Assembly: GCA_943331855.1 (NCBI GenBank)
Contig: CALQNE010000020.1
Span: forward strand, 1 to 26,674
Source: Bordetella parapertussis
GTDB taxonomy: Bacteria; Pseudomonadota; Gammaproteobacteria; Burkholderiales; Burkholderiaceae_B
Length of the DNA stretch: 26,674 nt
Reading direction: 5' to 3'
Position 1 is the stretch's first letter, and each line of letters opens with the position of its first letter. This document shows, piece after piece, positions 6,788 through 26,674 of the stretch. The notes under the pieces are model-generated. The model ran no database searches. It was not told where the DNA came from and saw only the letters and a program-made list of their open reading frames with translations. Made by a program: the position numbers and the translations under genes.

Positions 6788-7402
6788 ATGCCACTTCTTT
6801 TAATTCGCCATGGCGAGACCTTGTTAAATGCTGCGCGAACGGTTCAACCCGCCGCGACGCCGCTTGCACCGCGAGGCCTTGCCCAAGCCGAACTTCTTGC
6901 GCAACGCGTCGTTGGCCTCAAGCCCGCTGCAATTCTATCGAGCGATATGCCTCGCGCCTGGCAAACAGCAGAAGCGATTGGACGCCATACTGGGCTCGAG
7001 CCGATCAGCACTGAGTTGTTACGCGAACGTAATTTTGGTGACTTACGTGGGCGCCCCTATGACTCACTGAGTTTTAACCCGCTTGAGATGATCGAAGCAC
7101 CTGCAAACGGTGAATCATTAGCCGAGTTTCATGAGCGCGTTGCCGAGGCATTTGAATACGCCGCCCGTATGAGAGTCACGCTGGATGGGCCCTTGGTCGT
7201 TGTCTGTCATGGCTTGGTAATTCATGCCATGCTGGCAAATTGCATTGATACGGGCAAGCATCCCGTACCAGCTCGCATTGGCAACACCTCGATCACACAA
7301 GTTGTGGCACAGCACCCCTTCAAAGCCGAACTCGTGAACTGCACGGTGCACTTGGATGGCACTGACTTAGCCGAGGATACTAAAAGCTTATCAGGCGGTT
7401 AA
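6788..7402 (+). CDS. Histidine phosphatase family protein (phosphoglycerate-mutase-like)
   Basis: A 204-residue cytoplasmic member of histidine phosphatase branch 1. The phosphorylated His8 lies in LIRHGET (5-11). Arg56 (SDMPRAWQTA), Glu80 (LLRERNFG) and the second catalytic His141 (VVVCHG) complete the pocket. The length fits small broad-specificity phosphatases or CobC-like enzymes rather than full phosphoglycerate mutase. The ATG at 6788 is chosen because families of this kind start just before the RHG motif; an in-frame ATG at 6722 lies inside the Bug gene. It probably shares a transcript with the Bug gene (16-base gap). Its stop overlaps that of the convergent hydroxylase small-subunit gene. 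The substrate is unknown. Confidence 0.92.
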   Translation: MPLLLIRHGETLLNAARTVQPAATPLAPRGLAQAELLAQRVVGLKPAAILSSDMPRAWQTAEAIGRHTGLEPISTELLRERNFGDLRGRPYDSLSFNPLEMIEAPANGESLAEFHERVAEAFEYAARMRVTLDGPLVVVCHGLVIHAMLANCIDTGKHPVPARIGNTSITQVVAQHPFKAELVNCTVHLDGTDLAEDTKSLSGG

Positions 7403-12922: not shown

Positions 12923-12949
12923 GCGGTTCTCCAAGGAATGAGTTAAATG

Positions 12950-12978
12950 AGCATACTGATAGATGAAGCAAAGATCAA
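12950..12978 (-). promoter_or_regulatory. Promoter/operator of the TRAP receptor-hydroxylase unit
   Basis: On the minus strand TTGATC (12978-12973), a 17-base spacer and TATGCT (12955-12950) form a promoter with its start site about 20 bases before the ATG. The last spacer bases and the -10 read CTATCAGTATGC. The same arrangement, with CATCAGTATACG and an identical 17-base spacer length, stands before marR. The agreement of 11 in 12 bases between the + strand sequences at 12951-12962 and 18687-18698 supports a shared regulator. Confidence 0.6.
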
Positions 12979-12998
12979 CAACTAGACATACGACGGCC

Positions 12999-14543
12999 TC
13001 AGCTTTTGACGCCGTAACCACCTCCACCCGGCAAGCCGAGCTCGAGAATATCGCCCTCAATCATATCGACCACACCTTTGGGATGTTCGACTGATTTTCC
13101 ATTGAGCCACACGTGACCCGTGCGACCCGCCTGCCCACCCTGAATTCCCTTGGCAGGCACGCGCGTTCGTTCTGTTAATAAAGAAACACGTAGTCGCCCG
13201 GGCCAGCGCGACTGAAAGGATACTTTCTGACCCATTCCACCGCGATGCGCGCCTTCGCCACCCGAGCCGTCGATCAGACTTTTACAACCAAACAATACCG
13301 GCGAAAGCATCTCAGCCACTTCGATCGGCGTGTTTGAAATATTGGCAGGAAAACCAGACGTCGGTGGGCCGTCGCGATCACGCATCGCGCCCATTCCACC
13401 ATTAAAAAAGAGAATGCTTGAAAATGATGTGCCAAGCAACGGATTCACGCCACGCATCAGCACAGACCAAAGTGGCGTACCACTATCGGCTTGAACGCGT
13501 TCGGGCATCACTGAAGCAAGCGCTTCAAACACTGCAGCCTGTAGTTGATGACCAATTAAGTGACGCGCTCCAACCGCAGCAGGTGGCTTGGCGTTGACGA
13601 TGGTCCCTTCGGGTGCAATGACTTTAAATAAGCGCGTAAAGCCATCGTTATTGGGGATACCCGGTGACAACAAACATTTAAAAGGATAGATCGTATATGC
13701 GTAGGTGTGATTGAAGGTTTCATTAATCCCAAAACGAACCTGCGCCGTGCTACCGGTGTAATCGATGGTCACGCCATCATGGCTCACAATAATTTTTGCC
13801 TGGATTTTGATACGCTCATCCCAACCATCCGACTCAACAGAGCCGTGATACACACCTGGCGGAATTTTGCGCAACTCACGCAAGGCGGCATCTTCGGAAG
13901 CTTTGAAAATCGCAGCCGCGATCTCATTGATATCACTCAGTCCATATTCTTCAAGCAACTCAACCAGACGACGTTCAGCAACGCGCAGCGCACCGACTTG
14001 CGCCTCGATATCACCGCGCACTTGCTGCGGTAAACGCACGTTAGCCTCGAGCATTTGCATCACCCAGGGATTAAATACCCCTGCCTCAGCCAGCTTAATC
14101 ACAGGGAACCGAATACCTTCTTCAAAAACCTCACCTGCATCCGCTGACCACTGGCGACCACCTACGTCTGACAAGTGTGCCACCGCCATCGCAAAAGCCA
14201 CCAGGCGCTCACCAACAAAAATAGGGGCCACCATGGTTGCATCAGGCAAATGGCCTGTGCCAATCCAAGGGTCGTTGGTAAAAAGGATATCACCAGGCTT
14301 CAAGGACTCTTGCGGAAAAACTTTTAAAATCCCTTTAAGCGATAAAGGTGCGGTACCAATAAAGCCAGGGATACTCAGCGCAGACTGCGCCACCAAACGC
14401 GCCTCAGGATCAAGCAGAACGCAAGCAAAGTCGTTAGACTCGCGCACCACCGTCGAAAACGAAGTGCGCTTTAACGTTGCGCCCGCTTCATCAGTAATGG
14501 CGATCAGTCGATTCCAGTAAATCTCTAGGTCAATCGGGCTCAT
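12999..14543 (-). CDS. hyuB: HyuB: hydantoinase B/oxoprolinase/acetone-carboxylase family subunit
   Basis: A 514-residue partner subunit of the ATP-dependent hydantoinase, oxoprolinase and acetone/acetophenone carboxylase family. Members hydrolyse lactam or imide rings, or carboxylate ketones, with ATP-driven activation by HyuA. Family segments are visible: DLEIYWNRL near the start, TSFSTVVRESNDFAC (26-40), GDILFTNDPWIGTGHLPD (83-100), the VAHLSDVGG region, and a glycine-rich C-terminus ending LPGGGGYGV. The length is close to the usual 520-580. It follows hyuA after 19 bases, and its ribosome site is weak, so it is probably coupled to hyuA. Which of the three reaction types applies cannot be decided from sequence; the nearby reductase and hydroxylase make ring opening attractive. 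Confidence 0.93.
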   Translation of the reverse strand: MSPIDLEIYWNRLIAITDEAGATLKRTSFSTVVRESNDFACVLLDPEARLVAQSALSIPGFIGTAPLSLKGILKVFPQESLKPGDILFTNDPWIGTGHLPDATMVAPIFVGERLVAFAMAVAHLSDVGGRQWSADAGEVFEEGIRFPVIKLAEAGVFNPWVMQMLEANVRLPQQVRGDIEAQVGALRVAERRLVELLEEYGLSDINEIAAAIFKASEDAALRELRKIPPGVYHGSVESDGWDERIKIQAKIIVSHDGVTIDYTGSTAQVRFGINETFNHTYAYTIYPFKCLLSPGIPNNDGFTRLFKVIAPEGTIVNAKPPAAVGARHLIGHQLQAAVFEALASVMPERVQADSGTPLWSVLMRGVNPLLGTSFSSILFFNGGMGAMRDRDGPPTSGFPANISNTPIEVAEMLSPVLFGCKSLIDGSGGEGAHRGGMGQKVSFQSRWPGRLRVSLLTERTRVPAKGIQGGQAGRTGHVWLNGKSVEHPKGVVDMIEGDILELGLPGGGGYGVKS

Positions 14544-14562
14544 GATTTAGTCTTTGCCTTGT

Positions 14563-16689
14563 TCATGCTGCGCGACCCTGACGGGCGCCGAGCGTCATTC
14601 TTAAATTACCGTGAATATCTAATATAAAAACATCGCCCGGGCCCACGACCACCGTTGAACCGGGTTGCTCAATCAAGGCCGGTCCGTCATAACGTTGATC
14701 TGTTTGAAGTTGCTCAAGGGACAGCACGGGAGTTTGAACAAAACCCTCGATATCTGGAAAAAATACCTGCCGCACGCGCGCGTTTTGCTTGCCGCTACCA
14801 GCCTGTGCTTGAGTACGATCAACCTCAGAACCATGCGACGCGTTGGCCGTTGCCTCGACGCGCCAGTTCACGGCCTCCACGCGCTGGCCCACTAACTTGC
14901 CGCCAAAACGTGCGGCGTAGGCCTGTGCAAACGAGGCTTCAATCACAGACTGTTCAGCTTGCAACAAGTGGGTGGGCAGTTCGGTCTCCACTTCAAAGCC
15001 TTGGCCAACGTAACGCATGTCAGCGCTACGACGAAACGAAATTGTCTCTGGCGCCACGCCGGCTGATTCGAGCTCTTTACGTAGAGCGTCTTCCATCCCG
15101 AGTAATAAGGCTTCGATTGAGGACCAATCCATCTCACTCAAACGCGCATAACGCGTGCGGACCATATCCATTTTCATGGGGGCCACCAACAAGCCGAACG
15201 CCGAAAACACCCCTGCGTTAGCAGGCACTAATAAATCAGAGCAACCACTACGGCGTGCAACCTCACGGGCATGAATCGGACCAGCACCGCCAAACGCAAG
15301 CAAGGTATAGCGTCGAATGTCGCGTCCATTTTCAACCGCATGGATTTTGGCAGCGACCGCCATGTGTTCACACACAATGCGATGGATGCCATTGGCTGCC
15401 TCGATCACACTCAGCCCTAAGGGACGTGCCACATGCTCTTCAATGGCTTTTTCTGCTAAGTCCAGACGCAAAGTCACCGCACCGCTCAAGGTGCCTTGGG
15501 GATCCAGGTAACCCAACACCAGTGCCGCATCCGTCACAGTGGGACGCGTACCCCCCAAGCCATAGCACGCAGGCCCCGGACTTGACCCGGCACTTTGAGG
15601 ACCGACCTTAAGCAAACCCGTGGTGTCGACATGGGCAATACTGCCGCCGCCTGCGCCGATTTCGATCAAATCAATCGTGGGCAATCGAACAGGCAACCCA
15701 CTGCCCTTTTTAAAGCGCTGTTGCCGGGCAGCCTCGAACTCGGTCGTGATTGAAGGTCGACCATTCGAAATCAAACACGCCTTTGCGGTCGTGCCCCCCA
15801 TATCAAAGGCCATCACGTTTGGAGTATTTGAAACGCGCGCTGAATGTGCCGCACCGAGCGCACCTGCAGCGGGCCCAGATTCGAGCATACGGATGGGCAT
15901 GCGCTCACCGAGTTCACGCGAAATGACGCCGCCATTCGATTGCATGATGTGCAAGGTTGCATTCAAGCCGGTTGCACGCAAGCCATCTTCAATCGCACCC
16001 AGGTAACTGCCGACCATTGGCATGACACAAGCGTTCAAGACGGTTGCAACCGTACGCTCGTACTCACGGATCTCGCCCAAGACTTCAGACGAGAGCGAGA
16101 TCGACAACTCGGGTGCGACACGTTGGGCGATTGCTTTGACACGTTGCTCGTGCGACGGATTCGTAAAGCTATGCAAGAAACACACTGCGATCGCACGAAC
16201 CCCCGCATCACGCAATTGACAAATGACCCGCTCAACCTCGTCATCCTGCATTGCAATCACAACTTGACCCGCCGCATCGACACGTTCGCTCACTTCGGCG
16301 CGCAATGCTCGCGGAACGATCGCATCAGGCCCAGGCGCGGTGAGGTCGTACAGGTCGTAGCGTAACTCGCGAGCAATCTCAATCACATCGCGAAACCCTT
16401 TGGTCGAGATCAGACCTGTGACCGCACCCTTACGCTCAATCACAAGATTGGTCACAGCGGTGGTCGCACCCACCACGACGTCAGTTACCTGCTTCAACGA
16501 AAGCTGATGCTCTTGCAGCAAAGCCAATAAACCAAGGCGAATCGGCATCACAACATCAGGGGCGCCCGTTAGCACTTTAGACGTATAGATCGTGCCATCT
16601 GAGCCTAATAAAACGAGATCAGTAAAGGTTCCACCTATGTCGAAAGCAAAACGAAAGCGGATTTCTGAAGCGAGCGTTTGAGCAAGCAT
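14563..16689 (-). CDS. hyuA: HyuA: hydantoinase A/oxoprolinase/acetone-carboxylase family subunit
   Basis: A 708-residue ATP-binding subunit partnering HyuB. The N-terminal actin-like ATPase fold starts with FAFDIGGTFTDLVLL (14-28). VVGATTAVTNLVIERKGA and MQSNGGVIS follow, and the second phosphate region is AFDMGGTTAKACLI. A C-terminal domain closes the protein near GPGDVFILDIHGN. The subunit phosphorylates or activates the carbonyl substrate so that HyuB can act. ATG at 16689 is preceded by AAGGG at a good distance, and the preA stop is only two bases upstream, so preA-hyuA-hyuB form a tight operon. The family is shared by N-methylhydantoinase, 5-oxoprolinase, caprolactamase and several carboxylases, so the substrate is open. 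Confidence 0.94.
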   Translation of the reverse strand: MLAQTLASEIRFRFAFDIGGTFTDLVLLGSDGTIYTSKVLTGAPDVVMPIRLGLLALLQEHQLSLKQVTDVVVGATTAVTNLVIERKGAVTGLISTKGFRDVIEIARELRYDLYDLTAPGPDAIVPRALRAEVSERVDAAGQVVIAMQDDEVERVICQLRDAGVRAIAVCFLHSFTNPSHEQRVKAIAQRVAPELSISLSSEVLGEIREYERTVATVLNACVMPMVGSYLGAIEDGLRATGLNATLHIMQSNGGVISRELGERMPIRMLESGPAAGALGAAHSARVSNTPNVMAFDMGGTTAKACLISNGRPSITTEFEAARQQRFKKGSGLPVRLPTIDLIEIGAGGGSIAHVDTTGLLKVGPQSAGSSPGPACYGLGGTRPTVTDAALVLGYLDPQGTLSGAVTLRLDLAEKAIEEHVARPLGLSVIEAANGIHRIVCEHMAVAAKIHAVENGRDIRRYTLLAFGGAGPIHAREVARRSGCSDLLVPANAGVFSAFGLLVAPMKMDMVRTRYARLSEMDWSSIEALLLGMEDALRKELESAGVAPETISFRRSADMRYVGQGFEVETELPTHLLQAEQSVIEASFAQAYAARFGGKLVGQRVEAVNWRVEATANASHGSEVDRTQAQAGSGKQNARVRQVFFPDIEGFVQTPVLSLEQLQTDQRYDGPALIEQPGSTVVVGPGDVFILDIHGNLRMTLGARQGRAA

Positions 16690-16691
16690 TA

Positions 16692-18008
16692 TTAACCCTT
16701 CACCTTCGAGAGTTTGATGCCTCGGTCAAAGCCTTTTTCAAATTTTTTATTTTCAAAGACATCGTCTTTAATCATGAAAAATTCTTGTAAGGCGCGCTGT
16801 TCTTCGGTTGTCGTGTGCATGGTGGTGGCGTCAAACGGACAGGTCTGCGTACACATCTCGCAGCCGATACAGTTTGCATGAATCGATTCGACTGAACCGT
16901 CGCCTTGTGCCAGCGCATCGTAAAAACAAGTCTGAATGCAAATGGTACAGGTCGGATTCTTGCAAGCCTCAGAGGCAATCTCGCTATGCATGCGTGGCTT
17001 ACGAAACTGTTCACCGTAGTCTTTCACGGCAGCGCGCGAAGCGATACCTGTCATCGACGCAATATCTGGATAGCCATGGCTATCCATGAAATTATCAAGC
17101 CCGGTAATCATGCTCGGCAGATACTTAATGCCTTTGAGCATCAACACTGAACCCACTTGCACCAGTGGCGCACCCGTCATAATGAATTCGACGATATCTT
17201 TGTGATCGTAAATGCCATTCGAGCCCGTAATGGGCATGCCCAACTCGGTGTAAATCCGATTCACCCAGCGCAGCGACAAGGCCTTAGCCCACACGCCACC
17301 AATACCTGCAGGCCCCCCTAAACGAGGCAACCCTGTTTCAATATCGACTGAAAACCCTGTGTACCGATTGGTCGCCGTCACACCCGCAGCACCCGCCTCT
17401 TTGACGGCCCGCGCCACATCCAGCACGCGCGACTGATCTGGGGTCAGCTTGATCACCACGGGAATCTTTACTGCCTCGCATACCCGTGCCGTCACCTCGC
17501 GAGCGATTTCAGGTTCTTGCCCAATCATCGAGCCGCCATGTACCCCAGGCATCATGGCAGGATGCGGACAGCCAAAATTCAACTCGACCATGGGTAACCC
17601 ACAGTCTTCAATCGTGCGACAAATATCGATCCAGCTTTGTACGGTTTTGCCACCGGCACTGCCGATGAGATGTGACCCTTGATCTTGTGCGTATTTATTT
17701 AAATCTTTCAGGTGAGGAATCCATTCGCGCAAAGGCGTACTTGAATAGCCTGAACGACTATAGAAGACAAAATTCTTATTCACTTTGCCACGAATCAATT
17801 CATTTTTTTCGTTCAATATGGCGTACTTCGAATTTTGAGTCAGCCGCGCCATGTCTTCGATGTCGGTAAGGGTCTTGATAATCATGCCCCCCGCACCAGC
17901 GTCCACACACTCGCGGATCACTTCAGGGCTATTGGTCGTTTCAAGCGACGCAATCACCACCGGGTTCTTAAATTTGATGCCACAAAATTCTAATGAGAGA
18001 TCAGCCAC
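16692..18008 (-). CDS. preA: PreA-like dihydropyrimidine dehydrogenase subunit (FMN barrel plus 2x[4Fe-4S])
   Basis: A 438-residue protein with a dihydroorotate-dehydrogenase-like FMN barrel (about 1-330; starts LSLEFCGIKFKNPV, with ELNFGCPHP at 142-150 and VTATNRYTG at 210-218). A C-terminal two-cluster ferredoxin follows: Cys349, 354, 357, 361 and Cys380, 383, 386, 390. PreA with PreT reduces uracil or thymine using NADH. Here no preT lies nearby, and in the loop GGSMIGQEP (158-166) Ile162 stands where mammalian dihydropyrimidine dehydrogenase has its catalytic cysteine (ACGQD). It may therefore reduce a different ring using another electron donor. Translation starts at GTG 18008, with AGGGG seven bases upstream. 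It lies 31 bases after marR and two bases before hyuA. Confidence 0.92.
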   Translation of the reverse strand: MADLSLEFCGIKFKNPVVIASLETTNSPEVIRECVDAGAGGMIIKTLTDIEDMARLTQNSKYAILNEKNELIRGKVNKNFVFYSRSGYSSTPLREWIPHLKDLNKYAQDQGSHLIGSAGGKTVQSWIDICRTIEDCGLPMVELNFGCPHPAMMPGVHGGSMIGQEPEIAREVTARVCEAVKIPVVIKLTPDQSRVLDVARAVKEAGAAGVTATNRYTGFSVDIETGLPRLGGPAGIGGVWAKALSLRWVNRIYTELGMPITGSNGIYDHKDIVEFIMTGAPLVQVGSVLMLKGIKYLPSMITGLDNFMDSHGYPDIASMTGIASRAAVKDYGEQFRKPRMHSEIASEACKNPTCTICIQTCFYDALAQGDGSVESIHANCIGCEMCTQTCPFDATTMHTTTEEQRALQEFFMIKDDVFENKKFEKGFDRGIKLSKVKG

Positions 18009-18039: not shown

Positions 18040-18666
18040 TTAGGATGAAGATTGACGGCTCGCTTGACGAATACGCGCCTTCAACGCTTCGCCACCCGGA
18101 CGCAAAGAAGTTCGACCACTTTCGTTATTGCCCTCAACCAGTCGCCCAAGAAGATCCATAAACATCTTACGGTCGGTGGGGTTTAAAGGGCTTAACAACT
18201 GCTCTTGAGACAGTTGCATATCTTTTTGATACCGTTGTACAAATTTTTTACCTGCCGCAGTCGCCAGGCATAACTTACGACGGCGATTCAAGGGATCCAC
18301 CACGCGGGTTAAAAGCTGGCGATCTTCAAGCCGTCTGAGAATTTCAGCCACGTTGGCAGGATCCAGACCCAGCTCAGCACCTATGGTGGCCTGGTCAATG
18401 CCAGGTCGACTCATCAAAATGCTTAACAGCCCAAACTGAACTGGGGTCACTTGGCCATCGGCGACGCGCGCCGAAAACATCGCGACATGAATTTGATGCA
18501 GGCGCCGCACAAGATAGCCAGGCCGATCCCAAATCGTGTGATTTGTTGGCGCAACCATCGACGTGGATTTTGCAGGGGCTGGCACGACTACCAGCGCAGG
18601 TGGCCGACCTAAGCCAGGCTTGCGTCCCACTTTGGATTGTAGGGTGCTGGTAGTTTTGCTCAACAT
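18040..18666 (-). CDS. MarR-family transcriptional regulator with AT-hook-like N-terminal extension
   Basis: A 208-residue MarR-type winged-helix repressor, longer than the common 140-160. The core begins near residue 45. The helix-turn-helix reads ATIGAELGLDPANVAEILRR (93-112), followed by the wing DPLNRRRKLCLATAAG (124-139). The first 35 residues are basic and proline-rich and include GRKPGLGRPP, similar to an AT-hook core. A shorter protein starting at Met37 is possible, but GAGG upstream favours the ATG at 18666. It heads the preA-hyuA-hyuB group. A tandem repeat overlapping its own promoter, echoed before the TRAP receptor gene, suggests autoregulation and control of the whole block, probably relieved by a pathway ligand. 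Confidence 0.9.
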   Translation of the reverse strand: MLSKTTSTLQSKVGRKPGLGRPPALVVVPAPAKSTSMVAPTNHTIWDRPGYLVRRLHQIHVAMFSARVADGQVTPVQFGLLSILMSRPGIDQATIGAELGLDPANVAEILRRLEDRQLLTRVVDPLNRRRKLCLATAAGKKFVQRYQKDMQLSQEQLLSPLNPTDRKMFMDLLGRLVEGNNESGRTSLRPGGEALKARIRQASRQSSS

Positions 18667-18682
18667 ACACCTCGGTTAGACT

Positions 18683-18712
18683 GTTCGTATACTGATAGTT
18701 CGTATACTGATG
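18683..18712. repeat. Tandem 15-base direct repeat in the marR promoter
   Basis: GTTCGTATACTGAT occurs at 18683-18696 and again at 18698-18711, a perfect 14-base match with a 15-base period. Each copy contains the self-complementary core GTATAC with partly symmetric flanks (T..GTATAC..A). One copy covers the -10 and the other the start site of marR. It is a likely double operator for the MarR protein. Confidence 0.65.
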
Positions 18713-18765: not shown

Positions 18766-20040
18766 TCAAAGTAAGCTGTCAGCCCAAATATTGCGCGCCC
18801 AGCCCCAGCCGTACACCCCTTCAAGCTCACTGGGTGCTGCCGAAACACCGCCCGAGCCCGCGACGGTTTTAAAGGTTTTTTCTGCCGCACTATATTGATG
18901 CACACTCGCAACGTGAACCACTCTTGTTGCGTCGACAAAGCTGTAACAGGTATTGGTCAAAACGGGCTGCGGATTCAGATCAAATCCTCGCAACTCAGCC
19001 ACAATCGCCGCGGCAGCAACCTTGGCATGTTGATTGGCCATATGGCCGGACTTTGGCATGAAGGGCGCGTTTTGCACAGAATCACCAATGACATAAATAT
19101 CTTTTGCCGCGGTCGATTCAAAATTTAAATAGTTCACTTGCGCCCAACGCTTGTTTGAGTTGGCCAGCTCGGCCTGCACCACGACTTCACTGGCGCGCAT
19201 TCTAGGCAAGACGTTCAACACATCTGCTCGAACCGACTCCTGGATATCAAACTTGAGCGTCTTTGTGGCGGCCTCAACTCGAATCAAATTATGCGACGAA
19301 CGATATTCAATCATGCCCGGATACAAATCAGCCCAGGCCTTTTTAAAGAGACCCGGCTTGGACACCACGTCTTCATTTGCATCCAGAATTAATACTTTAG
19401 CGGCGGGCTTATGCTTCTTAAAATATGCGGCAACCTGACATGCACGTTCGTAAGGGCCAGGCGGGCACCTGAAGGGAGCTTCAGGGATGCTCAAGGCATA
19501 AACGCCGCCATCAGGCATCTGTTGCAATTGCTTTTGTAGCGCAAGTGTTTCAGCGCCCGCCTTCCAGGCTTGCACGGTCACGCCCGATTCATTAGCCTGC
19601 CTTAAGCCCTCGACGCTATCCATCATCAAACCAATCCCAGGCGACAAGACGAGTTTGTCGTAGGCGAGTACGTCGCCTGACTTTAATTGGACCTGCTTTT
19701 TAATTCGATCGATTGAAGTGACCCAATCTTGAATTAAAGAAATGCCATGCTGCTTTTGCAAACTCTCGTATGAAACTGTTAACTCTGAGAGCGTGTGCGA
19801 GCCACCCAACACCAAGTTAGATAGCGGGCAAGAAATAAAAAACGGTTCGGGCTCAATCAACGTGACCGACACACTCGCATTCGAAAGAAGACGAAGGTAT
19901 TTTGCGGCCGTCGCACCGCCGTAGCCCCCGCCCACTATCACTACACGAGCCGCTTTCAGGTCAGCGCGTACAAGGCTCGGAAAAACCAGGCCGCCAGCGA
20001 ATAGCGCAGCATTCTGATTTAAGAATTGGCGACGTTTCAT
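18766..20040 (-). CDS. fccB: Flavocytochrome c sulfide dehydrogenase flavoprotein subunit (FccB/SoxF)
   Basis: A 424-residue periplasmic FAD protein that oxidises sulfide or sulfane sulfur and passes electrons to cytochrome c. A Tat signal (KRRQFLNQN) is followed by the dinucleotide fold VVIVGGGYGGATAA (33-46). All three functional cysteines of FccB are present: Cys71 in FISCPLSN, equivalent to the covalent FAD attachment site; Cys192 in FRCPPGPYERA; and Cys365 in TNTCYSF, the redox-active pair. The C-terminal FAD segment IYVIGDSV (315-322) and the small FCSD domain complete it. No fccA cytochrome gene is adjacent; soxA, 20 bases upstream, encodes the nearest cytochrome. It closes the sox group and probably handles sulfide or polysulfide formed there. 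Confidence 0.95.
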   Translation of the reverse strand: MKRRQFLNQNAALFAGGLVFPSLVRADLKAARVVIVGGGYGGATAAKYLRLLSNASVSVTLIEPEPFFISCPLSNLVLGGSHTLSELTVSYESLQKQHGISLIQDWVTSIDRIKKQVQLKSGDVLAYDKLVLSPGIGLMMDSVEGLRQANESGVTVQAWKAGAETLALQKQLQQMPDGGVYALSIPEAPFRCPPGPYERACQVAAYFKKHKPAAKVLILDANEDVVSKPGLFKKAWADLYPGMIEYRSSHNLIRVEAATKTLKFDIQESVRADVLNVLPRMRASEVVVQAELANSNKRWAQVNYLNFESTAAKDIYVIGDSVQNAPFMPKSGHMANQHAKVAAAAIVAELRGFDLNPQPVLTNTCYSFVDATRVVHVASVHQYSAAEKTFKTVAGSGGVSAAPSELEGVYGWGWARNIWADSLL

Positions 20041-20060
20041 TAGAGTCTCTGCATCACTTG

Positions 20061-20870
20061 TTAGGGCCGCACGCCTGGAGTCTCGAGAAGCATGCCGCGC
20101 GCACGCCAGGCTAAAAATAATTCAAGCTCGAGCAGCTCTTTAGAACCAAGGGCATAGGGCTCGGCTCGCACACCCGTTAAACAATTACGCAAGCGCCGCT
20201 GAAGCGAACCCACCGCCTGCCATTCGAGTCGATAAATTGGGTAGGCCGTAGGGTGCGCTTGGGGAATGGGATTTCCTGCTAATTTTTGACCCGCACGCTC
20301 GGCGTGACATTGCGCGCACGACAAATTAAGTTGCCCCATCCGCTGATTAAATAAGTGCTGGCCCGCATCGAGCGACGTCGCATTCGCGACATTACGTTCG
20401 ACTGTTATTGGCATACCTTTAGACTGCGTCGCCACAAAAGTTGACAGCGACAAAAGAGGTTTACTCTCGAAAGCCAGAGGTGCAGCTTCTTGATGCGTGA
20501 CCCGACAGTCGTTAATCTGCCCCTCAAGATTGACAAGAGAACCCTTGGCAGAGTTGAACTTTGGAAAACTTGCCGCAACCCCTTTCATTGAGGTGCTCGC
20601 ATCGCCATGACATGTCGCACAAGAGCGATTTTTCTTACCTGCAGACTCTTGCCATAAGGCCTGACCATCCAATACCGCAAAGGTCGCGGGGTTCAACAGC
20701 GGATCATCTTGCATTGCTTTCGTATCTGCAGACATGAGCGCGTAGCTTGATTGTCGCTCAGCGCTCGGCGAAGCCGCCTTTGATACCGTCACAACTGATA
20801 CGACCACACTCATGGCACATATCACCAGCGCTTTTATTATCTTAGGTAGCAAGTCGCTCAAACGCGTCAA
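20061..20870 (-). CDS. soxA: SoxA, dihaem c-type cytochrome
   Basis: The 269-residue large subunit of the SoxAX cytochrome, which joins sulfur substrates oxidatively to the SoxY cysteine. A Sec signal peptide (1-32, cleavage near SKA) precedes two haem sites, CATCH (84-88) and CAQCH (185-189), making it the dihaem type. Cys230 in RNCLTGVRAE corresponds to the persulfide-modified haem ligand of the active site. Cys122 in INDCR is another conserved family position. The start is TTG at 20870, overlapping the soxZ stop (TTGA); the later ATG at 20813 would remove the positive part of the signal peptide. There is no clear ribosome site, so it is probably coupled to soxZ translation. Confidence 0.95.
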   Translation of the reverse strand: MTRLSDLLPKIIKALVICAMSVVVSVVTVSKAASPSAERQSSYALMSADTKAMQDDPLLNPATFAVLDGQALWQESAGKKNRSCATCHGDASTSMKGVAASFPKFNSAKGSLVNLEGQINDCRVTHQEAAPLAFESKPLLSLSTFVATQSKGMPITVERNVANATSLDAGQHLFNQRMGQLNLSCAQCHAERAGQKLAGNPIPQAHPTAYPIYRLEWQAVGSLQRRLRNCLTGVRAEPYALGSKELLELELFLAWRARGMLLETPGVRP

Positions 20871-21196
20871 GTCACAGTGAGTTTGCTAGAGGTACTTGAG
20901 GCATAGCCATTATCGCCCGACCATTTAAACTCAAGCGTGCCACTTTCAGTTGCGACTGTCGAAAAAATAATCAGCGGGTTGGCGCCCATCGCAGGATGCA
21001 ACTCCACACGAAATACTTCAACGCCGTTATAAATACAAAGAAAATCTCGGATAATGTCTCGGGGCACACGTTGGCCCGTTTCGGTATGACGAAAACCAGA
21101 TTCCATATCATGCTGCACGATGATGCGGATTTCAAGAATTTCGCCTTTCTTGGCCGTAGTCGGCATCGTGACGAGAGTGCGAGAAGTCTTGCTCAC
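20867..21196 (-). CDS. soxZ: SoxZ, partner of the sulfur carrier SoxY
   Basis: A 109-residue immunoglobulin-like protein that forms the SoxYZ heterodimer, the carrier of sulfur intermediates in the periplasm. Family features are PTTAKKGEILEIR, HDMESGFRH and the C-terminal beta segments LEFKWSGDNG. It has no signal peptide and would be exported with SoxY through the Tat system. The GTG at 21196 is chosen because a strong GGAGGTG stands just upstream and gives the normal length; an upstream ATG at 21220 would place the ribosome site inside the gene, and ATG 21166 lacks support. The start overlaps the end of soxY. Confidence 0.94.
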   Translation of the reverse strand: MSKTSRTLVTMPTTAKKGEILEIRIIVQHDMESGFRHTETGQRVPRDIIRDFLCIYNGVEVFRVELHPAMGANPLIIFSTVATESGTLEFKWSGDNGYASSTSSKLTVT

Positions 21197-21197
21197 G

Positions 21198-21641
21198 TTA
21201 CACCTCCGTGCAGGCTGCAAGCGTCACCAACGTCGCTGCATCACCCTGCCAAAAAGAGCCATCACTCATTTGCGCAATTGCCCTCACGCGCTGCGAATCA
21301 CCTAGACGTATGCGCGTCGTGATTGCCGCAAGCCCCGCACGAGGAGATAAATAAAAGCTCACCACGTTCGGCAAGGGATTACCCTCGGCCACGATATGAA
21401 TCGCACGTACATAATCTGCTTGAGTCATGGGGCTCTCGACGGCAACCTTCATCGTCACTAGATTGCCATTTTCAACCAAAGGTGGAATCTCCAAGGTCAC
21501 GCGCCCGACCTTGGCTTTTTGATTTCCCAAAATCTTATCGACGGCCTGTGTTGCATCATCGACCGTCGCAAATGCCTTCACTGCCGGCAACACACTGGCG
21601 GCCGCAGCGCTTATCACAAAGACTCTCCGGGTTAGGCTCAT
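21198..21641 (-). CDS. soxY: SoxY-type sulfur carrier with atypical C-terminal tail
   Basis: A 147-residue SoxY. The Tat signal is TRRVFVISAAAASVLP (4-19), and the body contains PPLVENGNLV (53-62), the family signature, and the YVRAIHIVAEGNPLP strand region (77-91). The carrier cysteine normally sits in a flexible GGCGG tail that enters partner active sites. Here the protein ends LVTLAACTEV: Cys144 is kept, but the flanking glycines are alanine and threonine and the tail ends with two further residues. The swinging arm would be stiffer and sterically different. The last codons double as the soxZ ribosome site (GGAGGTG, 21207-21201). The start overlaps the soxX stop (ATGA). Confidence 0.93.
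   Translation of the reverse strand: MSLTRRVFVISAAAASVLPAVKAFATVDDATQAVDKILGNQKAKVGRVTLEIPPLVENGNLVTMKVAVESPMTQADYVRAIHIVAEGNPLPNVVSFYLSPRAGLAAITTRIRLGDSQRVRAIAQMSDGSFWQGDAATLVTLAACTEV
21201..21207 (-). promoter_or_regulatory. Strong ribosome-binding site of soxZ inside the soxY 3' end
   Basis: GGAGGTG on the minus strand covers the Glu-Val codons at the end of soxY, four bases before the soxZ GTG at 21196. This decides the soxZ start and couples production of SoxY and SoxZ. It also means that the unusual SoxY tail residues coincide with a ribosome site. Confidence 0.75.
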
Positions 21642-22078
21642 TGTTTTAAGCTCACTAAAAAAGCGACGACATCTTCAATTTCTTGTGCCGTCAAAATTGT
21701 TTTTCCAGCAAATTGTGGCGCTACCCGCGCGCCGCTCTCTATACGAAAGTACGAAGGCATGATGGTGTCCGGATTAAAGCGACTGGCATCTACAATTCGG
21801 GCACGCAACTGCGCAGGCGACAACGCAGCAGAACTCGCTGCCAGATCAGGTGCCAACGTGCCTTGAAACCGCTCTTCCGGAAAAGGGCCACTGTGACACA
21901 AAATACACAAGCCACCCTGACGACTCAACACTAAGGCACGTCCACGTATCGCGTCACCGGGCTGGCCCGACAGGGATACCTGAATCTGATCACCTACAAA
22001 AACCTGCGCATAAAGGGGGTTGGGGTTGGCAAGCCAAATACATAGCGCGACCAAACACCCAACACCCCCTCTCGTCAT
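21638..22078 (-). CDS. soxX: SoxX, monohaem c-type cytochrome
   Basis: The 146-residue small subunit of SoxAX. A Sec signal peptide (1-24, LYA cleavage) is followed by one haem site CILCH (58-62), and Met107 in DTIMPSYF is the expected distal ligand. The C-terminal segment LTAQEIEDVVAFLVSLKQ is typical for class I cytochromes. It takes the electrons released when SoxA attaches sulfur to SoxY. Its ATG overlaps the stop of the molybdenum hydroxylase large subunit by four bases (ATGA) with only a weak ribosome site of its own, so its translation probably depends on the upstream hydroxylase gene. This junction is the main evidence that the hydroxylase and sox genes form one operon. Confidence 0.95.
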   Translation of the reverse strand: MTRGGVGCLVALCIWLANPNPLYAQVFVGDQIQVSLSGQPGDAIRGRALVLSRQGGLCILCHSGPFPEERFQGTLAPDLAASSAALSPAQLRARIVDASRFNPDTIMPSYFRIESGARVAPQFAGKTILTAQEIEDVVAFLVSLKQ

Positions 22079-24264
22079 ACCAACGTGATTCCGCTATTTT
22101 TCAAAGGCACGTTACGGAAACGCTTGCCCGTTGCGCGATAAAGCGCGTTGAGCACAGCGGGTGCTGCGACACAAATCGTGGGCTCACCAATACCGCCCCA
22201 CTCTTTGCCGCCACCTTCCAAAATAATCGTTTCAACTTTAGGCATTTGCGCAAGGCGAATCGAACCAAAGGTATCAAAATTCTTTTGCTCGATTCTGCCG
22301 TCTTTGACCGTGCACTCTTCTTCGAACAGTGCTGATAAGCCATACACAAACGAACCCGAAACCTGACGTTTGATTTGAGCAGGATTGACGGCATAGCCGC
22401 AGTCGGTCGCAGCAACAATACGATGGATCTTCACTTTTGTGCCATCTGTTACGGACAACTCACACGCAGCCGCTACGTAGCTGCCAAACGCCGTCATCTG
22501 CGCAACACCACGATGCACGCCGGGCGCTGCAGGCTTGTTCCAACCAATGCCATCAGCCACCGCATTGAGCACAGCTAGATTGCGAGGGAATTTGCCCATG
22601 AACTTGCGACGAAACTCGACAGCATCTACACCTGCCGCCTCAGCGAGTTCATCCATAAAGCACTCGATAAACACCGCGTTCTGGTTGACGTTCACACCGC
22701 GCCAAAAGCCTGGTGGCACGTGCGTATTACGCATCGCGTGATCCATCAACTGATTTGGAAACTCGTAACCAAACCCGTGTTCGCCACCATCAAAGACACC
22801 TTGAAACACCAAGGGGTCGCGGCCCTTTTGCTGCGCAACCACCGCCGGACGCACGGCAGCCAAAATCGACTGCCCTGACAAACGCATGTGCACGCCCGTC
22901 AGATTTTTGTCCTTGTCAAAGGAGCCCGTCAGCTTGCACATCATGACGGGATGGTAACGACCTTGGGTCATGTCTTCTTCGCGAGTCCAGATCAACTTGA
23001 TCGGCGTACCAGGCATTTGCTTAGCGATCGCAACCGCTTGCGTGGTGTAGTCCTGAAACGCACCTCGACGACCAAAACCGCCACCCAAATTGATTTTGTA
23101 GACTTCGCATTGTTCAGCTGGCAAACCCGAAGCTGCAATCACCGCCGCCAATGAGGCTTCGCCGTCTTGCGTAGGCACCCAGGCTTCACAACGCGCTGGC
23201 GTCCACTTCGCCGTCGCATTCATCGGCTCCATTGGCGCATGATTCAAGAAGGGATAAAAATAAGTTGCCTCGGTCTTTTTAACAGCAGAGGCAAGCGCAG
23301 CTTTAGTATCGCCACGGGTATTACCCACAAACGCTTGCTCGGCCGTCAAACCCTCTTCAAGCATTTTGGCGATAGAAGCACTTGAAACAGTAGCATTTGG
23401 GCCCTCGTCCCACACAATCGCAACCTGATCAAGCGCCGTCTTGGCAAGCCAGAAAGTCTCAGCGACTACTGCCACCGCAGTCTCGCCCACTTTAATGACT
23501 TTTTTCACGCCCTTGATGCTGGTGACTTTACTGTCATCAAAGCTTTTCACTTTGCCGCCAAACACCGGGCATTCTTTGATGGTGGCCACCAACATGCCAG
23601 GCATTGTTAAATCCATGCCATAGACCTGCTTACCCGTGACCTTGTCTGCGAAGGTGTCAATGCGATTCAAGGGCTTACCAATGATCTTCCACTCTTTTGG
23701 ATCTTTCAGAGTGATTTCAGTGGGCACCGCAAGCTTTGACGCCGCCTCAGCAACTTTACCAAAACTGACTTTACGACCGCTCGGTTTATGGGTAATCACG
23801 CTTTCAGCGGCCACACATTCTGCAACGGGAACCTTCCATTCGTCCGCAGCGGCTTGCACCAGCATCAAACGGGCTGCTGCGCCACCTTTGCGAACATATT
23901 GCTCTGACGTGCGAATCCCGCGGCTACCACCGGTTGAGAAATCACCCCAAATGCGTTTACGCTTGAGGCTTTCACCGGGCGTTGGATATTCAACCGTGAC
24001 TTTGCTCCAGGCGCACTCAAGTTCTTCAGCGACCATTTGAGCCAAACCAGTAATCGTGCCTTGGCCCATCTCTGAGCGCACAACGCGCACAATGACCGTG
24101 TCATCAGGCTTGATCACCACCCAAGCACCGATTTCAGGGGTGGACTCTGCGGCTTGCGCTGAGCCCATAAAAGGAATTTGCAAGCCTAGTGCCAGGCCGC
24201 TACTGACTGCAGTCGTGCCAACAATAAACTGACGACGTGAGGGATTCGGGACGCGTGCGTTCAT
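22075..24264 (-). CDS. Periplasmic molybdenum hydroxylase large subunit, IorB-like (copy 2)
   Basis: A 729-residue single-chain molybdopterin-binding subunit resembling isoquinoline 1-oxidoreductase beta and the membrane-associated aldehyde dehydrogenases. A Tat signal (SRRQFIVGTTAV, ending near SAQAAE) precedes SEMGQGTITGLAQMVAEELE, STGGSRGIR, the cofactor loop NLGGGFGRRGAF, PPGFWRGVNVNQNA, and the catalytic Glu694 in WGGIGEPTICVAAP. It would hydroxylate a heterocycle or aldehyde in the periplasm. The ATG at 24264 is chosen because the Tat motif follows and AAGGAG, overlapping the IorA stop codon, lies six bases upstream. It uses the preceding IorA-like subunit. Relatives usually pass electrons to a c-type cytochrome subunit; none of that type is here, but SoxX and SoxA follow directly. 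Confidence 0.94.
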   Translation of the reverse strand: MNARVPNPSRRQFIVGTTAVSSGLALGLQIPFMGSAQAAESTPEIGAWVVIKPDDTVIVRVVRSEMGQGTITGLAQMVAEELECAWSKVTVEYPTPGESLKRKRIWGDFSTGGSRGIRTSEQYVRKGGAAARLMLVQAAADEWKVPVAECVAAESVITHKPSGRKVSFGKVAEAASKLAVPTEITLKDPKEWKIIGKPLNRIDTFADKVTGKQVYGMDLTMPGMLVATIKECPVFGGKVKSFDDSKVTSIKGVKKVIKVGETAVAVVAETFWLAKTALDQVAIVWDEGPNATVSSASIAKMLEEGLTAEQAFVGNTRGDTKAALASAVKKTEATYFYPFLNHAPMEPMNATAKWTPARCEAWVPTQDGEASLAAVIAASGLPAEQCEVYKINLGGGFGRRGAFQDYTTQAVAIAKQMPGTPIKLIWTREEDMTQGRYHPVMMCKLTGSFDKDKNLTGVHMRLSGQSILAAVRPAVVAQQKGRDPLVFQGVFDGGEHGFGYEFPNQLMDHAMRNTHVPPGFWRGVNVNQNAVFIECFMDELAEAAGVDAVEFRRKFMGKFPRNLAVLNAVADGIGWNKPAAPGVHRGVAQMTAFGSYVAAACELSVTDGTKVKIHRIVAATDCGYAVNPAQIKRQVSGSFVYGLSALFEEECTVKDGRIEQKNFDTFGSIRLAQMPKVETIILEGGGKEWGGIGEPTICVAAPAVLNALYRATGKRFRNVPLKNSGITLV

Positions 24265-24274
24265 ATTTGACTCC

Positions 24275-24727
24275 TTAAGCTTTAGCAACTGAGTGGATGG
24301 CGGCGCGCACTTCTTGAAAGCTGCCACAACGACAAATGTTCGTAATGGCCGCATCGATATCTGCATCGGTCGGCTTAGCATTTTTAGCGAGCAAGTCTGT
24401 GGCAGCCATCAACATGCCCGATTGGCAAAAGCCACATTGCGGCACTTGATGCTCAATCCAGGCTTGCTGTAGCTGTGTCATTTTGCCGTCTTTCGCCAAG
24501 CCTTCAATGGTTTGAATCTGCTTGCCCACCGCGGCGCTGACAGGCAATACACATGAACGAATAGCTGCGCCATCCATCATGATGGTACAGGCGCCACATT
24601 GCGCGATACCACAGCCGTATTTAGTACCGGTTAAACCCACTTGCTCGCGGATCACCCACAGCAAAGGGGTGGTTGGGTCGACATCAACGCTATGCGCTTT
24701 GCCGTTAACAGTTAACTGAATCGCCAT
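24275..24727 (-). CDS. [2Fe-2S] subunit of periplasmic molybdenum hydroxylase, IorA-like
   Basis: A 150-residue electron-transfer subunit with two [2Fe-2S] clusters: Cys39, 44, 47, 59 (YGCGIAQCGACT) in the N-terminal plant-type domain and Cys98, 101, 132, 134 (PQCGFCQSG; NICRCG) in the helical domain. It has no signal peptide and would be exported folded with its Tat-bearing large subunit. GGAG lies eight bases before the ATG. It is the only such gene between two large-subunit genes, so it may serve both. The 61-base gap upstream (24728-24788) is AT-rich and shows no convincing terminator; a weak internal promoter cannot be excluded. The next gene follows ten bases downstream. Confidence 0.95.
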   Translation of the reverse strand: MAIQLTVNGKAHSVDVDPTTPLLWVIREQVGLTGTKYGCGIAQCGACTIMMDGAAIRSCVLPVSAAVGKQIQTIEGLAKDGKMTQLQQAWIEHQVPQCGFCQSGMLMAATDLLAKNAKPTDADIDAAITNICRCGSFQEVRAAIHSVAKA

Positions 24728-24788
24728 GGATGAGCTCCGAAGTTTTTATCGTGAATAAAAATAGTTTTAAATCAAACATCAAAAAAAT

Positions 24789-26674
24789 CTACACCAAGGT
24801 GAAGCCATGCTTACGCAAAGGCAGATCACGCACTGGTTTACCTGTTGCCGCCAAAATTGCATTCAACACTGCGGGACCCACGACACAAATGGTCGGTTCG
24901 CCCACGCCACCCCAAAAATCATGACTCGGCACCAACACGCACTCAACCTTTGGCGTGTCTTTAAGTTTAGCCAACGGATAGGCGTGATAATTCGTTTCTT
25001 TCACCTGCCCGTTTTCAATCGTAATGTCTTCATTAAAGATTGCAGACAACGCCATCACGACCGAACCCTCGATCTGCGCTTTAACTTGCGAAGGGTTCAC
25101 AAAATGACCTGAGTTCAGCGCAAACACCATGCGGTGCACCTTGACTTGACCGCTGTTTGAAACAGATACCTCGGCGGTGGCCGCCGAGTAACTGCCATAG
25201 CCCATAAACTGGGCGATGCCGCGATGACGCCCAGCAGGCAAGGCTTTACCCCAGTCGCCTTTTTGCGCGACCGCATCCAAAACCGCCAGATGTTTCGGAT
25301 GCTTCTTCATCAGATCACGACGAAAGGCAAGCGAATCGCGACCCGCAGCACGCGCGCACTCTTCAATAAAGCACTCCATGTAAATACCGTTTTGATTGGT
25401 ATTGACACCGCGCCAAGGACCCACCGGCACGTGACTATTGCGCATGACATATTCAGTTAACAGACTAGGAAAGGTATAACCAAGTTGCGCATCACCCGGC
25501 TCTTCGTAAAACCCTTGCAACTGGCGAACATCTTTATTGTTTTTAATGGCAGAAGGATTTAAATACGCGTTAATCGACTGCCCCGACACACGAACATGGA
25601 ATCCAGTTAGATTGCCCTTGTCATCCAGGCCCGCCGACATTTTGGCCATCGAAATCGGACGATAGAAGTCGTGCATCATGTCTTCTTCACGACTCCAAAC
25701 CATTTTGATCGGAGTATTTGGATATTTTTTGGCGATCGCTACAGCGTGATGCATAAAGTCTTGCGTACCGCCACGACGCCCTAAGCCACCGCCCAAGTCC
25801 ATGGTTTTAATATCGCAATTTGCCAGTGGCAAACCCGACGCTTCCGAGAGCGCGGCGATTGATGCCTCGGCATTTTGCGTGGGCACCCAAGCATAAGCTC
25901 GATCACCACTGATCTGCACCACGCAGTTCATCGGCTCCATCGTGGCGTGTGCAAGAAACTGACTGCTGTAAACGGCCTCGACAACTTTGGCTGATCCTTT
26001 AATGGCAGCAAGCGCATCGCCCTCTTTACGCTGCCAAAAATCGCCTTCTGCAGTCAGGCCCTCTTTCAAGCCCGCCGCGATGGTTGAGCTTGAGGCTTTT
26101 GCATTTGGGCCTAAATCCCAATCGATCGGCAAATTGTCTAAGGCTGTCTTGGCACGCCACCAGGTATCGGCAACCACCGCCACTGTCGAGTCATTGACCT
26201 TCAAGGCACCTTTAACGCCACGCATCGCTTTAATTTTTGACTCATCAAAACTGACGAGCTTGCCGCCAAAGACTGGGCAGCTTTTAACTGCGGCGCACAA
26301 CATATTCGGCAAACGCAAGTCAATGCTGAAGACTTTGGCGCCGTTGACTTTATCGACCGTGTCCAGGCGAGGCACTGCTGTTCCGGCAATCTTCCACTCT
26401 TGAGGCTTTTTCAACACGATGCTTTTCGACTCGGGCGGTGTGAGCTTGGCAGCCGCATCCGCGACCTTGCCATAATTCACCGTACGGCCAGACTTCGCGT
26501 GCGTGATGATCCCTTTGCTCACAGTGAGTTCTGCAACGGGTACATTAAATTGATCGGCAGCCGCCTGCATCAACATCATCCGCGCTGCAGCGCCACCACG
26601 ACGCACATAGTCATGCGAGTCACGAATACCGCGACTACCGCCAGTTGCCATCGCACCCCAAGCACGCTTACGTG
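24789..26674 (-). CDS. Molybdenum hydroxylase large subunit, IorB-like (copy 1), 5' end cut by window edge
   Basis: A paralogue of the large subunit at 22075-24264, similar along its whole visible length (about half the residues identical by eye). The frame continues to the right edge: the bases before the ATG at 26651 encode RKRAWGA, matching RKRIWGD of the other copy, so that ATG is internal and the N-terminus, presumably with a Tat signal, lies outside. Visible features are ATGGSRGIRDS, PVGPWRGVNTNQNG and the catalytic glutamate in WGGVGEPTICVVGP. The cofactor loop is LGGGLGRRGG, with leucine where copy 2 and most relatives have phenylalanine. No small-subunit gene follows other than the shared IorA. 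A different substrate from copy 2, or a two-headed complex, are possible. Confidence 0.93.
   Translation of the reverse strand, partial: RKRAWGAMATGGSRGIRDSHDYVRRGGAAARMMLMQAAADQFNVPVAELTVSKGIITHAKSGRTVNYGKVADAAAKLTPPESKSIVLKKPQEWKIAGTAVPRLDTVDKVNGAKVFSIDLRLPNMLCAAVKSCPVFGGKLVSFDESKIKAMRGVKGALKVNDSTVAVVADTWWRAKTALDNLPIDWDLGPNAKASSSTIAAGLKEGLTAEGDFWQRKEGDALAAIKGSAKVVEAVYSSQFLAHATMEPMNCVVQISGDRAYAWVPTQNAEASIAALSEASGLPLANCDIKTMDLGGGLGRRGGTQDFMHHAVAIAKKYPNTPIKMVWSREEDMMHDFYRPISMAKMSAGLDDKGNLTGFHVRVSGQSINAYLNPSAIKNNKDVRQLQGFYEEPGDAQLGYTFPSLLTEYVMRNSHVPVGPWRGVNTNQNGIYMECFIEECARAAGRDSLAFRRDLMKKHPKHLAVLDAVAQKGDWGKALPAGRHRGIAQFMGYGSYSAATAEVSVSNSGQVKVHRMVFALNSGHFVNPSQVKAQIEGSVVMALSAIFNEDITIENGQVKETNYHAYPLAKLKDTPKVECVLVPSHDFWGGVGEPTICVVGPAVLNAILAATGKPVRDLPLRKHGFTLV

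Follow-up and report, generated by a model that had tools for sequence, protein, structure and literature searches.

Why a molybdenum hydroxylase should be encoded together with proteins of the Sox sulfur-oxidation system is the question raised by a stretch of DNA from Bordetella parapertussis (GenBank assembly GCA_943331855.1, contig CALQNE010000020.1, positions 1 to 26,674 of the forward strand), analysed here over its full length of 26,674 nucleotides and called the window. On its minus strand, between the right edge and position 18766, the genes iorB1-iorA-iorB2-soxX-soxY-soxZ-soxA-fccB follow each other without interruption, as established from the list of open reading frames (ORFs) and from profile matches. 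The IorAB-SoxXYZA operon is real and recurs far beyond the genome of the window; in many freshwater and soil bacteria, a molybdenum hydroxylase is encoded as one unit with an altered Sox set. With a probability of about 0.55, these genes would specify a periplasmic module in which an aldehyde-dehydrogenase-like IorAB uses SoxXA as its cytochrome partner, coupling the oxidation of an organic compound with the capture of sulfur.

The Operon of the Window

The members of the operon, in the coordinates of the window, are the following:

24789..26674, minus strand: iorB1, molybdenum cofactor (MoCo)-binding subunit (MoCoBD_1/MoCoBD_2; GGVGEP motif; 5′ end lost at the window edge)
24275..24727, minus strand: iorA, small subunit with two [2Fe-2S] domains (Fer2 and Fer2_2; best solved match 8gy3_B, E 8.5e-43)
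22075..24267, minus strand: iorB2, MoCo-binding subunit (MoCoBD_1/2; GGIGEP and GGGFGRR motifs; best solved match 8gy3_C, E 4.5e-68)
21638..22078, minus strand: soxX, one CxxCH haem motif (TIGR04485 over cut-off; solved matches SoxX 2c1d_B and 1h31_B)
21198..21641, minus strand: soxY with an AAC arm, ending LAACTEV (TIGR04487 over cut-off; Pfam SoxY)
20867..21196, minus strand: soxZ, likely GTG start one base past the soxY stop (Pfam SoxZ; best solved match SoxZ 2ox5_Z)
20061..20870, minus strand: soxA, two CxxCH motifs, TTG start (TIGR04484 over cut-off; cysteine aligned with the RxxC-motif cysteine of solved SoxA 1h31_A)
18766..20040, minus strand: fccB, flavocytochrome c sulfide dehydrogenase flavoprotein (FCSD_central and FCSD-flav_bind; best solved match 5n1t_A, E 1.2e-93)

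IorAB has the layout of the xanthine oxidase (XO) family, with a MoCo-binding large subunit and a separate small subunit bearing two [2Fe-2S] clusters; as for a flavin adenine dinucleotide (FAD) subunit, no FAD_binding_5 gene is found among the ORFs of the operon. SoxX scores 76.4 bits against TIGR04485 (cut-off 61) and SoxA 224.5 bits against TIGR04484 (cut-off 110), and the three haem motifs of SoxXA and the SoxA cysteine motif are all present. SoxZ, with 70.3 bits, is SoxZ-like, yet below the SoxZ_true cut-off of 76. In FccB, the cysteines in FRCPPGPYER and TNTCYSF align with those of 5n1t and are presumably the redox cysteines of flavocytochrome c sulfide dehydrogenase. No FccA cytochrome subunit adjoins fccB in the window, and a small cytochrome c adjoins it in four other loci (L041, L113, L236, and L244; loci are cited as L and genomes as G numbers). 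A search with one SoxB query returned no similar sequence within the window. By eye, the translated N termini of IorB2 (SRRQF), SoxY (TRRVF), and FccB (KRRQF) are like those of twin-arginine translocation (Tat) substrates, while those of SoxX and SoxA have the look of Sec export; no signal was seen in IorA or SoxZ, which would be exported together with their partners. AlphaFold models of IorB2 and SoxY had a mean predicted local distance difference test score (pLDDT) of 58.0 and 57.7, respectively, too low for use.

The member that departs from its family is SoxY. It reaches 187.8 bits against TIGR04487, the "SoxY-related AACIE arm protein" (cut-off 172), and only 90.3 bits against the true SoxY profile TIGR04488, under its cut-off of 125. 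It ends in LAACTEV instead of GGCGG, at a place where solved SoxY proteins align as KVTIGGC. The SoxY of the window is not canonical and, in this respect, the family assignments of a preliminary description of the locus have to be amended; its gene order, strand, and other assignments are borne out.

That description also gave four-base overlaps at iorB2/soxX (22075-22078), soxX/soxY (21638-21641), and soxZ/soxA (20867-20870, given the TTG start of soxA), all of which stand, and a three-base overlap at soxY/soxZ, which does not: the only in-frame starts there are GTG at 21196, leaving a one-base gap, and TTG at 21220, giving a 23-base overlap. The start of iorB2 is probably at 24267, behind AAGGAG, rather than at 24381. 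The count of two IorB and one IorA subunits turned out to be an effect of the window edge, because iorB1 runs off the end of the window and the nearly identical locus L001 (operon proteins 96-100% identical) has a further iorA-like gene (57%) upstream of it. Two iorAB pairs are thus predicted in tandem. The two large subunits are 51% identical, and the iorB1 homologue has its own iorA upstream in both L001 and L041. Another close operon (IorB2 93% identical) lies in L005, a metagenome-assembled genome (MAG) labelled Bordetella parapertussis, a label that looks wrong.

Conservation of the Module

The conservation of this arrangement was studied in 98 loci with an AAC-type arm, comprising the best 80 of 286 relatives and 18 loci from a survey of Pseudomonadota, with gene content determined by tblastn using the proteins of the window as queries. 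No pair across the two sets is at least 95% alike over 2.5 kb, and 69 of the 98 loci hold at least 19 kb. All six of iorA, iorB2, soxX, soxY, soxZ, and soxA are present in 88 of the 98, so that the conserved join of a periplasmic XO-family molybdenum enzyme with SoxXYZA, as originally proposed, is strongly supported. Seven of the other ten loci stop at a contig end (L004, L005, L014, L039, L045, L065, and L067), which leaves three true exceptions: L062 and L064, with no iorAB, and L078, in which no soxA was found. In L062, a Polynucleobacter isolate, a scrap of IorA of 31 residues (9342-9434) stands immediately before soxX; iorAB was therefore deleted there and soxXYZA retained.

According to their labels, the loci belong to isolates and MAGs of Alcaligenaceae, Comamonadaceae, Polynucleobacter, Bradyrhizobium, and other Alphaproteobacteria. 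Both Beta- and Alphaproteobacteria show the order iorA-iorB2-soxX-soxY-soxZ-soxA, sometimes with fccB placed between iorB2 and soxX, and an accident of one genome is thereby rejected. The module also occurs on plasmids of Methylobacterium, Neorhizobium, and Roseomonas; the Neorhizobium record has no annotated iorB coding sequence, and the iorB match lies in two pieces. Taking the start closest to the preceding stop, overlaps of 1-4 bases are predicted at iorB2/soxX in 18/97 cases, at soxX/soxY in 47/101, at soxY/soxZ in 74/101, and at soxZ/soxA in 81/98.

The SoxY cysteine, with three to six residues after it, is found in 98/98 loci, preceded by SA (51), AA (45), or GA (2), and with a glutamate at +2 in 93. 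By pattern, the SoxA cysteine motif is found in 94 of 96 extracted SoxA sequences, the two misses being one cysteine at another spacing and one extraction artefact. The G[VI]GEP motif, whose glutamate we take to be the catalytic residue of the XO-family enzyme, is present in 89 of 90 long IorB2 sequences of the loci. Among the 60 largest ORF clusters of the 98 loci, only IorA, IorB, SoxX, SoxY, SoxZ, SoxA, and FccB are widely common to beta-type and other loci. A wider conserved neighbourhood was rejected on this comparison, and so were FccB (41/98 loci), MarR, PreA, HyuAB, and CoxLMS as fixed parts of the module; MarR and PreA follow the operon in seven of the best 80 loci, all of them close relatives.

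Further arms were noticed outside this pattern. In two Comamonadaceae MAGs, divergent SoxXYZA sets have the arms ESACVDGT, with an IorAB of its own (IorB2 46%; L157:8580-13279), and TACFDET, with a GMC oxidoreductase gene and the end of an iorB1 as neighbours (L158:1-5041). On pSymA of Sinorhizobium meliloti (L245:5908-8349), a soxY-soxZ-cytochrome c-fccB row encodes a SoxY ending in ATNGCL; neither soxXA nor soxB was found within the 12 kb examined.

The pairing of arm and enzyme can be followed in both directions. TIGR04487 matched 120 of 398 Pseudomonadota genomes, 15 over cut-off, and about 20 kb were fetched around 18 of the 20 top-ranked places, the remaining two (G012 and G007) being L073 and L054. 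All 18, and likewise L073 and L054, encode an AAC- or SAC-type arm together with iorA and iorB2. As controls served 20 of more than 100 lower-scoring places, a non-random choice mostly from the upper ranking (L136 with only 11.7 kb): all 20 arms end in GGCGG, iorA or iorB is found in none, and soxB in 18. In reverse, with IorB2 searched against the same 398 genomes and two candidates scored per genome, the matches listed comprise a close class at 55-77% identity and, after a gap, a next match at 42%; a 52% match in G400 (L201) is of the IorB1 type. Of the 24 listed members of the close class, 20 adjoin an AAC SoxY.

SoxB and SoxC

SoxB was found in 0/98 AAC loci within the DNA fetched for each. 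It is important to note that the same genomes often encode it elsewhere: SoxB is over cut-off in 17/20 and 14/18 of the genomes searched, that is, in 31 of 38. Seven lack it, namely two isolates (Sheuella amnicola and Jezberella montanilacus), the MAG G020, and G342, G328, G095, and G240, whose completeness is not stated; in the two isolates and G020, a true SoxY over cut-off is missing as well. SoxC is over cut-off in 18 of 26 genomes, Jezberella included. Because AAC genomes without SoxB exist and SoxC occurs elsewhere, the module does not seem to need SoxB or to be a stand-in for SoxCD. The earlier suggestion that the molybdenum enzyme takes the place of SoxCD has accordingly been dropped, since SoxB is likewise absent from the loci.

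The frequent presence of SoxB in the genome might indicate that the cluster is an accessory set for thiosulfate oxidation which feeds a canonical SoxB encoded elsewhere. This is very improbable, given the seven genomes with no SoxB over cut-off and the fact that 17 of 20 genomes tested, the same 17 that have SoxB, possess a GGCGG-type SoxY of their own over cut-off. Moreover, an excerpt of a study of Bradyrhizobium diazoefficiens states that soxY1, in sox locus I, is the only one of its soxY genes that thiosulfate oxidation requires (PMC5748708); soxY2 is not assigned to an arm type here. The soxXYZA genes of freshwater bacteria such as Polynucleobacter, or of Bradyrhizobium, are alone no evidence of thiosulfate oxidation.

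The IorAB Enzyme and Its Cytochrome Slot

The best matches of IorB2 and IorA among solved structures are chains C and B, respectively, of the same complex, the aldehyde dehydrogenase 8gy3, whose A chain is a cytochrome c. No homologue of 8gy3_A is encoded in the operon, where soxX, soxY, soxZ, soxA, and fccB come after iorB2. In a tree of 75 IorB sequences, the IorB2 class forms one group (support 98) next to the IorB1 group, and of its 55 rows, 51 are accompanied by SoxY, one by SoxXA only, and three by neither. The Sox label changes six times on this tree, against 14.9 times in shuffles. The IorAB-SoxXYZA of L157 falls outside the IorB2 group, on a long branch.

Relatives of IorB without Sox genes were examined for cytochromes. 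In the 2.5 kb downstream of 24 distant Sox-free IorB genes (36-42% identity), frames containing two or three CxxCH motifs occur in 14 cases (in L218 the three motifs are split over two frames) and a single motif in one; upstream, a motif is found in one case. The downstream cytochrome of L221, the one tested, matches the cytochrome subunits of several solved dehydrogenases, including 8gy3_A. Ten close Sox-free orthologues are available (L198-L200, L234, L235, L237, L239, L240, L242, and L243), seven of which come from eight chosen plasmid matches opened among 175 records. A CxxCH frame lies within 1.5 kb upstream of iorA in eight of these ten, compared with 2 of 89 Sox-linked loci. Six of the seven plasmid orthologues are from Rhizobiaceae, with the order cytochrome c-iorA-iorB annotated in the three that carry annotation; the seventh, from Methylosinus, has a multihaem cytochrome, and the eighth cytochrome-bearing case is G318. 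The cytochrome slot of IorAB is thus apparently occupied by SoxXA. With three haem motifs in SoxXA, and with soxX starting where relatives of IorB have a cytochrome gene, a takeover of the electron-acceptor role by SoxXA is the simplest reading. Of the roles offered for the enzyme in the preliminary description, feeding electrons into SoxAX is the one to which this pattern, the 8gy3 match, and L197 lend most support.

L197 (8283-12413) has the order iorA-iorB2-soxX-soxA, with no soxYZ and with the SoxA cysteine motif retained; its genome, G159, is not among the survey genomes with a SoxY match. It constitutes a natural test case for the contribution of SoxYZ. It also bears on the proposal that the substrate of IorAB is an intermediate carried on the SoxY cysteine, as for SoxCD or SoxB in the canonical cycle. 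No SoxB is encoded alongside, L197 is the only Sox-linked locus seen without SoxYZ, and the cysteine itself is invariant. Nevertheless, no conspicuous position of IorA or IorB2 tells the Sox-linked proteins from the Sox-free ones, some orthologues have no SoxYZ at their locus, XO-family enzymes hydroxylate carbon, and many of the genomes have SoxC elsewhere. Such an activity, also put forward originally, gained no support and is unlikely. Group-specific residues marking a docking site were rejected as well, three weak positions being all that was found; the lack of conspicuous Sox-specific residues is expected if only the acceptor changed.

Several observations weigh against SoxXA as the partner of IorAB. 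Nine of the 24 distant Sox-free loci have no CxxCH frame downstream at all, and the count of eight in ten perhaps amounts to only three independent cases, because seven were chosen from plasmids and six are from Rhizobiaceae. Neither Sox genes nor a nearby cytochrome accompany L198 and L200, and in Polynucleobacter-like genomes, six IorB1-type loci are flanked on neither side by a cytochrome frame. Four of the 24 listed IorB2-class matches are without a nearby SoxY (G007:C13, which is L200; G159, L197; G207, L198; and G318, L199). L062 and L064 keep soxXYZA with no iorAB beside it, in genomes that hold an IorB of 52-54% identity elsewhere, and at L078 a SoxA was not found next to IorAB-SoxXYZ. 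A soluble cytochrome might serve IorAB instead, and SoxXYZA might act independently.

The same orthologous IorAB without Sox, together with L062, in which soxXYZA outlived iorAB, would fit two independent periplasmic oxidations, IorAB and SoxXYZA(-FccB), that are merely co-expressed, for example on the same dissolved organic matter, with no direct electron contact. This explanation is rather doubtful, for the pairing of the AAC arm with IorAB is near-exclusive over two proteobacterial classes, and most loci have either a cytochrome c or SoxXA. In addition, the distances of IorB2 and SoxY are correlated (0.88) as strongly as those of SoxY and SoxZ (0.89) over 41 loci, with shared species history not removed.

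Two side observations concern the surroundings of these enzymes. After the iorB1 homologue of a Polynucleobacter genome comes a Ferric_reduct-family membrane protein, MsrQ-like by eye, and no cytochrome c (L205:11278-11877; L201:11158-11790 is similar). In Sinorhizobium medicae (L234:5662-12551), a response regulator, an ATP-binding protein, a cytochrome c, IorA, IorB, and a sorbosone-dehydrogenase-family protein stand in a row, which may suggest that IorAB works on aldehydes or sugars.

A Proposed Mechanism

Across these predicted proteins, the module is conserved, the arm is altered, SoxB is absent from the loci, the cofactor motifs are intact, and the cytochrome slot follows a pattern; the transfer of electrons from IorA to SoxXA, the kind of substrate, and the cargo and role of SoxYZ are what we infer. 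With SoxXA as the cytochrome partner, IorB would oxidise an organic substrate, perhaps an organosulfur compound, and electrons would pass from the [2Fe-2S] clusters of IorA through the three haems of SoxXA to the respiratory chain. The SoxA cysteine motif is kept and SoxYZ should therefore still be loaded: SoxXA would also join a thiol or sulfane oxidatively to the carrier cysteine of the altered SoxYZ. In canonical SoxAX, this SoxA cysteine has been proposed, in the part of the source available, to take thiosulfate and hand it to SoxYZ (PMC4423706). The oxidation of an organic compound, most likely one carrying or releasing reduced sulfur, would in this way be coupled to the capture of that sulfur, and FccB, where present, may handle sulfide.

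More tentatively, the loci might define a class of molybdenum hydroxylases with SoxXA as a dedicated redox subunit, the AAC-arm SoxYZ serving as a thiol carrier, either to hold an organic or organosulfur substrate during its oxidation or to supply the molybdenum centre with sulfur. If this is true, the swinging-arm carrier of lithotrophic sulfur oxidation has been re-used for periplasmic organic chemistry or cofactor upkeep.

The proposal that SoxXA and SoxYZ serve the cofactor, the sulfane sulfur of the carrier restoring the sulfido ligand of molybdenum in the periplasm, beyond reach of the cytoplasmic chaperone XdhC, is quite improbable. It would agree with the absence of SoxB beside the carrier, which leaves IorAB as the only other obvious acceptor encoded there, and with two reports available in part: a fused SoxYZ-like protein accompanies pyrroloquinoline quinone (PQQ) dehydrogenases that have adjacent active-site cysteines (PMC12997753), and XO-family enzymes have an equatorial sulfur ligand (PMC2997495). 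However, the Sox-free orthologues evidently manage without the carrier, and L197 has lost SoxYZ while retaining SoxXA.

Neighbouring Genes

Beyond the 3′ end of the operon, the window continues with one further gene on the same strand:

18040..18666, minus strand: marR, MarR-type regulator (Pfam MarR)

This gene probably forms a unit of its own, preceded at 18746-18717 by a promoter-like sequence (TTGACA-18-GACAAT); such matches are no commoner in the region than in shuffles. Between the site and the start of marR, positions 18683-18711 of the minus strand hold two adjoining copies of ATCAGTATACGAAC, a possible operator. After marR, positions 11828-18008 encode a PreA-like protein, HyuA and HyuB of the caprolactamase/oxoprolinase type, and a DctP binding protein, an arrangement also present in L002, L003, and L016, among other close relatives. 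Distant HyuAB also occur upstream of iorA in L111 and L112, and HyuAB near IorAB is perhaps a hint of a cyclic amide substrate. Farther on, at 7399-11791, lies a second XO-family molybdenum enzyme, of the CoxL/CoxM type, with a CoxG domain fused to its [2Fe-2S] subunit. In one lineage (L113:11473-14141), a LysR-type helix-turn-helix protein, an XdhC-MobA fusion, and a TauE/SafE-family protein are encoded 3′ of soxA; the latter two would correspond to MoCo insertion and a possible sulfite/sulfonate exporter.

Comparison With Known Systems

In the open-access literature searched, a set that excludes subscription papers, no description of the IorAB-SoxXYZA pairing was found among the matches listed. 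The excerpts at hand touch its parts separately. In a Polynucleobacter strain, three SOX clusters are described, including Pnuc_1154-1157, and Alphaproteobacteria such as Bradyrhizobium have some SOX genes in common with it; no confirmation was obtained that sulfur oxidation yields energy, and that excerpt does not mention a molybdenum enzyme (PMC3308952). For SAR324, SoxYZ adjoins flavocytochrome c, and an isoquinoline 1-oxidoreductase is named separately, not joined to it in the portion seen (PMC4782131). Likewise, IorB appears, in the text available, solely in a list of Tat substrates, not joined to SoxY (PMC3623810). The role of SoxYZ-like carriers without SoxB is not settled in the literature found, and a near-exclusive IorAB partner for the AAC-arm carrier supplies a concrete biochemical context that makes a direct test possible.

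With the canonical SoxXAYZBCD system, the operon of the window shares SoxX, SoxA with its cysteine motif, the SoxY and SoxZ families, a flavoprotein of the FccB/SoxF type, and, presumably, the periplasmic location. It differs in that no SoxB was found at the locus and no SoxCD is encoded in the operon, in an arm of the AACxE type and not GGCGG, and in a built-in XO-family molybdenum enzyme. The NCBIfam family TIGR04487 includes the SoxY of the window over its cut-off, but its name is silent on the molybdenum hydroxylase, and the pairing with IorAB emerged from the present analysis. Isoquinoline 1-oxidoreductase, from which the name IorAB was taken over through the source annotations, is also a two-subunit XO-family enzyme with no FAD subunit; unlike it, the enzyme of the window is linked to Sox genes, and isoquinoline is not assigned as its substrate. 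The quinoprotein dehydrogenase-associated SoxYZ-like carrier (TIGR04557; PP_2677 of Pseudomonas putida) offers a parallel, namely a divergent SoxYZ beside a periplasmic dehydrogenase and not beside SoxB, although there SoxY and SoxZ are fused, the enzyme depends on PQQ, a SoxH-like hydrolase is present, and the arm region reads GGCSAPA in L213 and L214. Finally, the aldehyde dehydrogenase 8gy3, composed of a large molybdenum subunit, a small FeS subunit, and a cytochrome c subunit, resembles IorB2 and IorA more closely than any other solved structure, but in the place of its cytochrome subunit the operon of the window has soxX and soxA.

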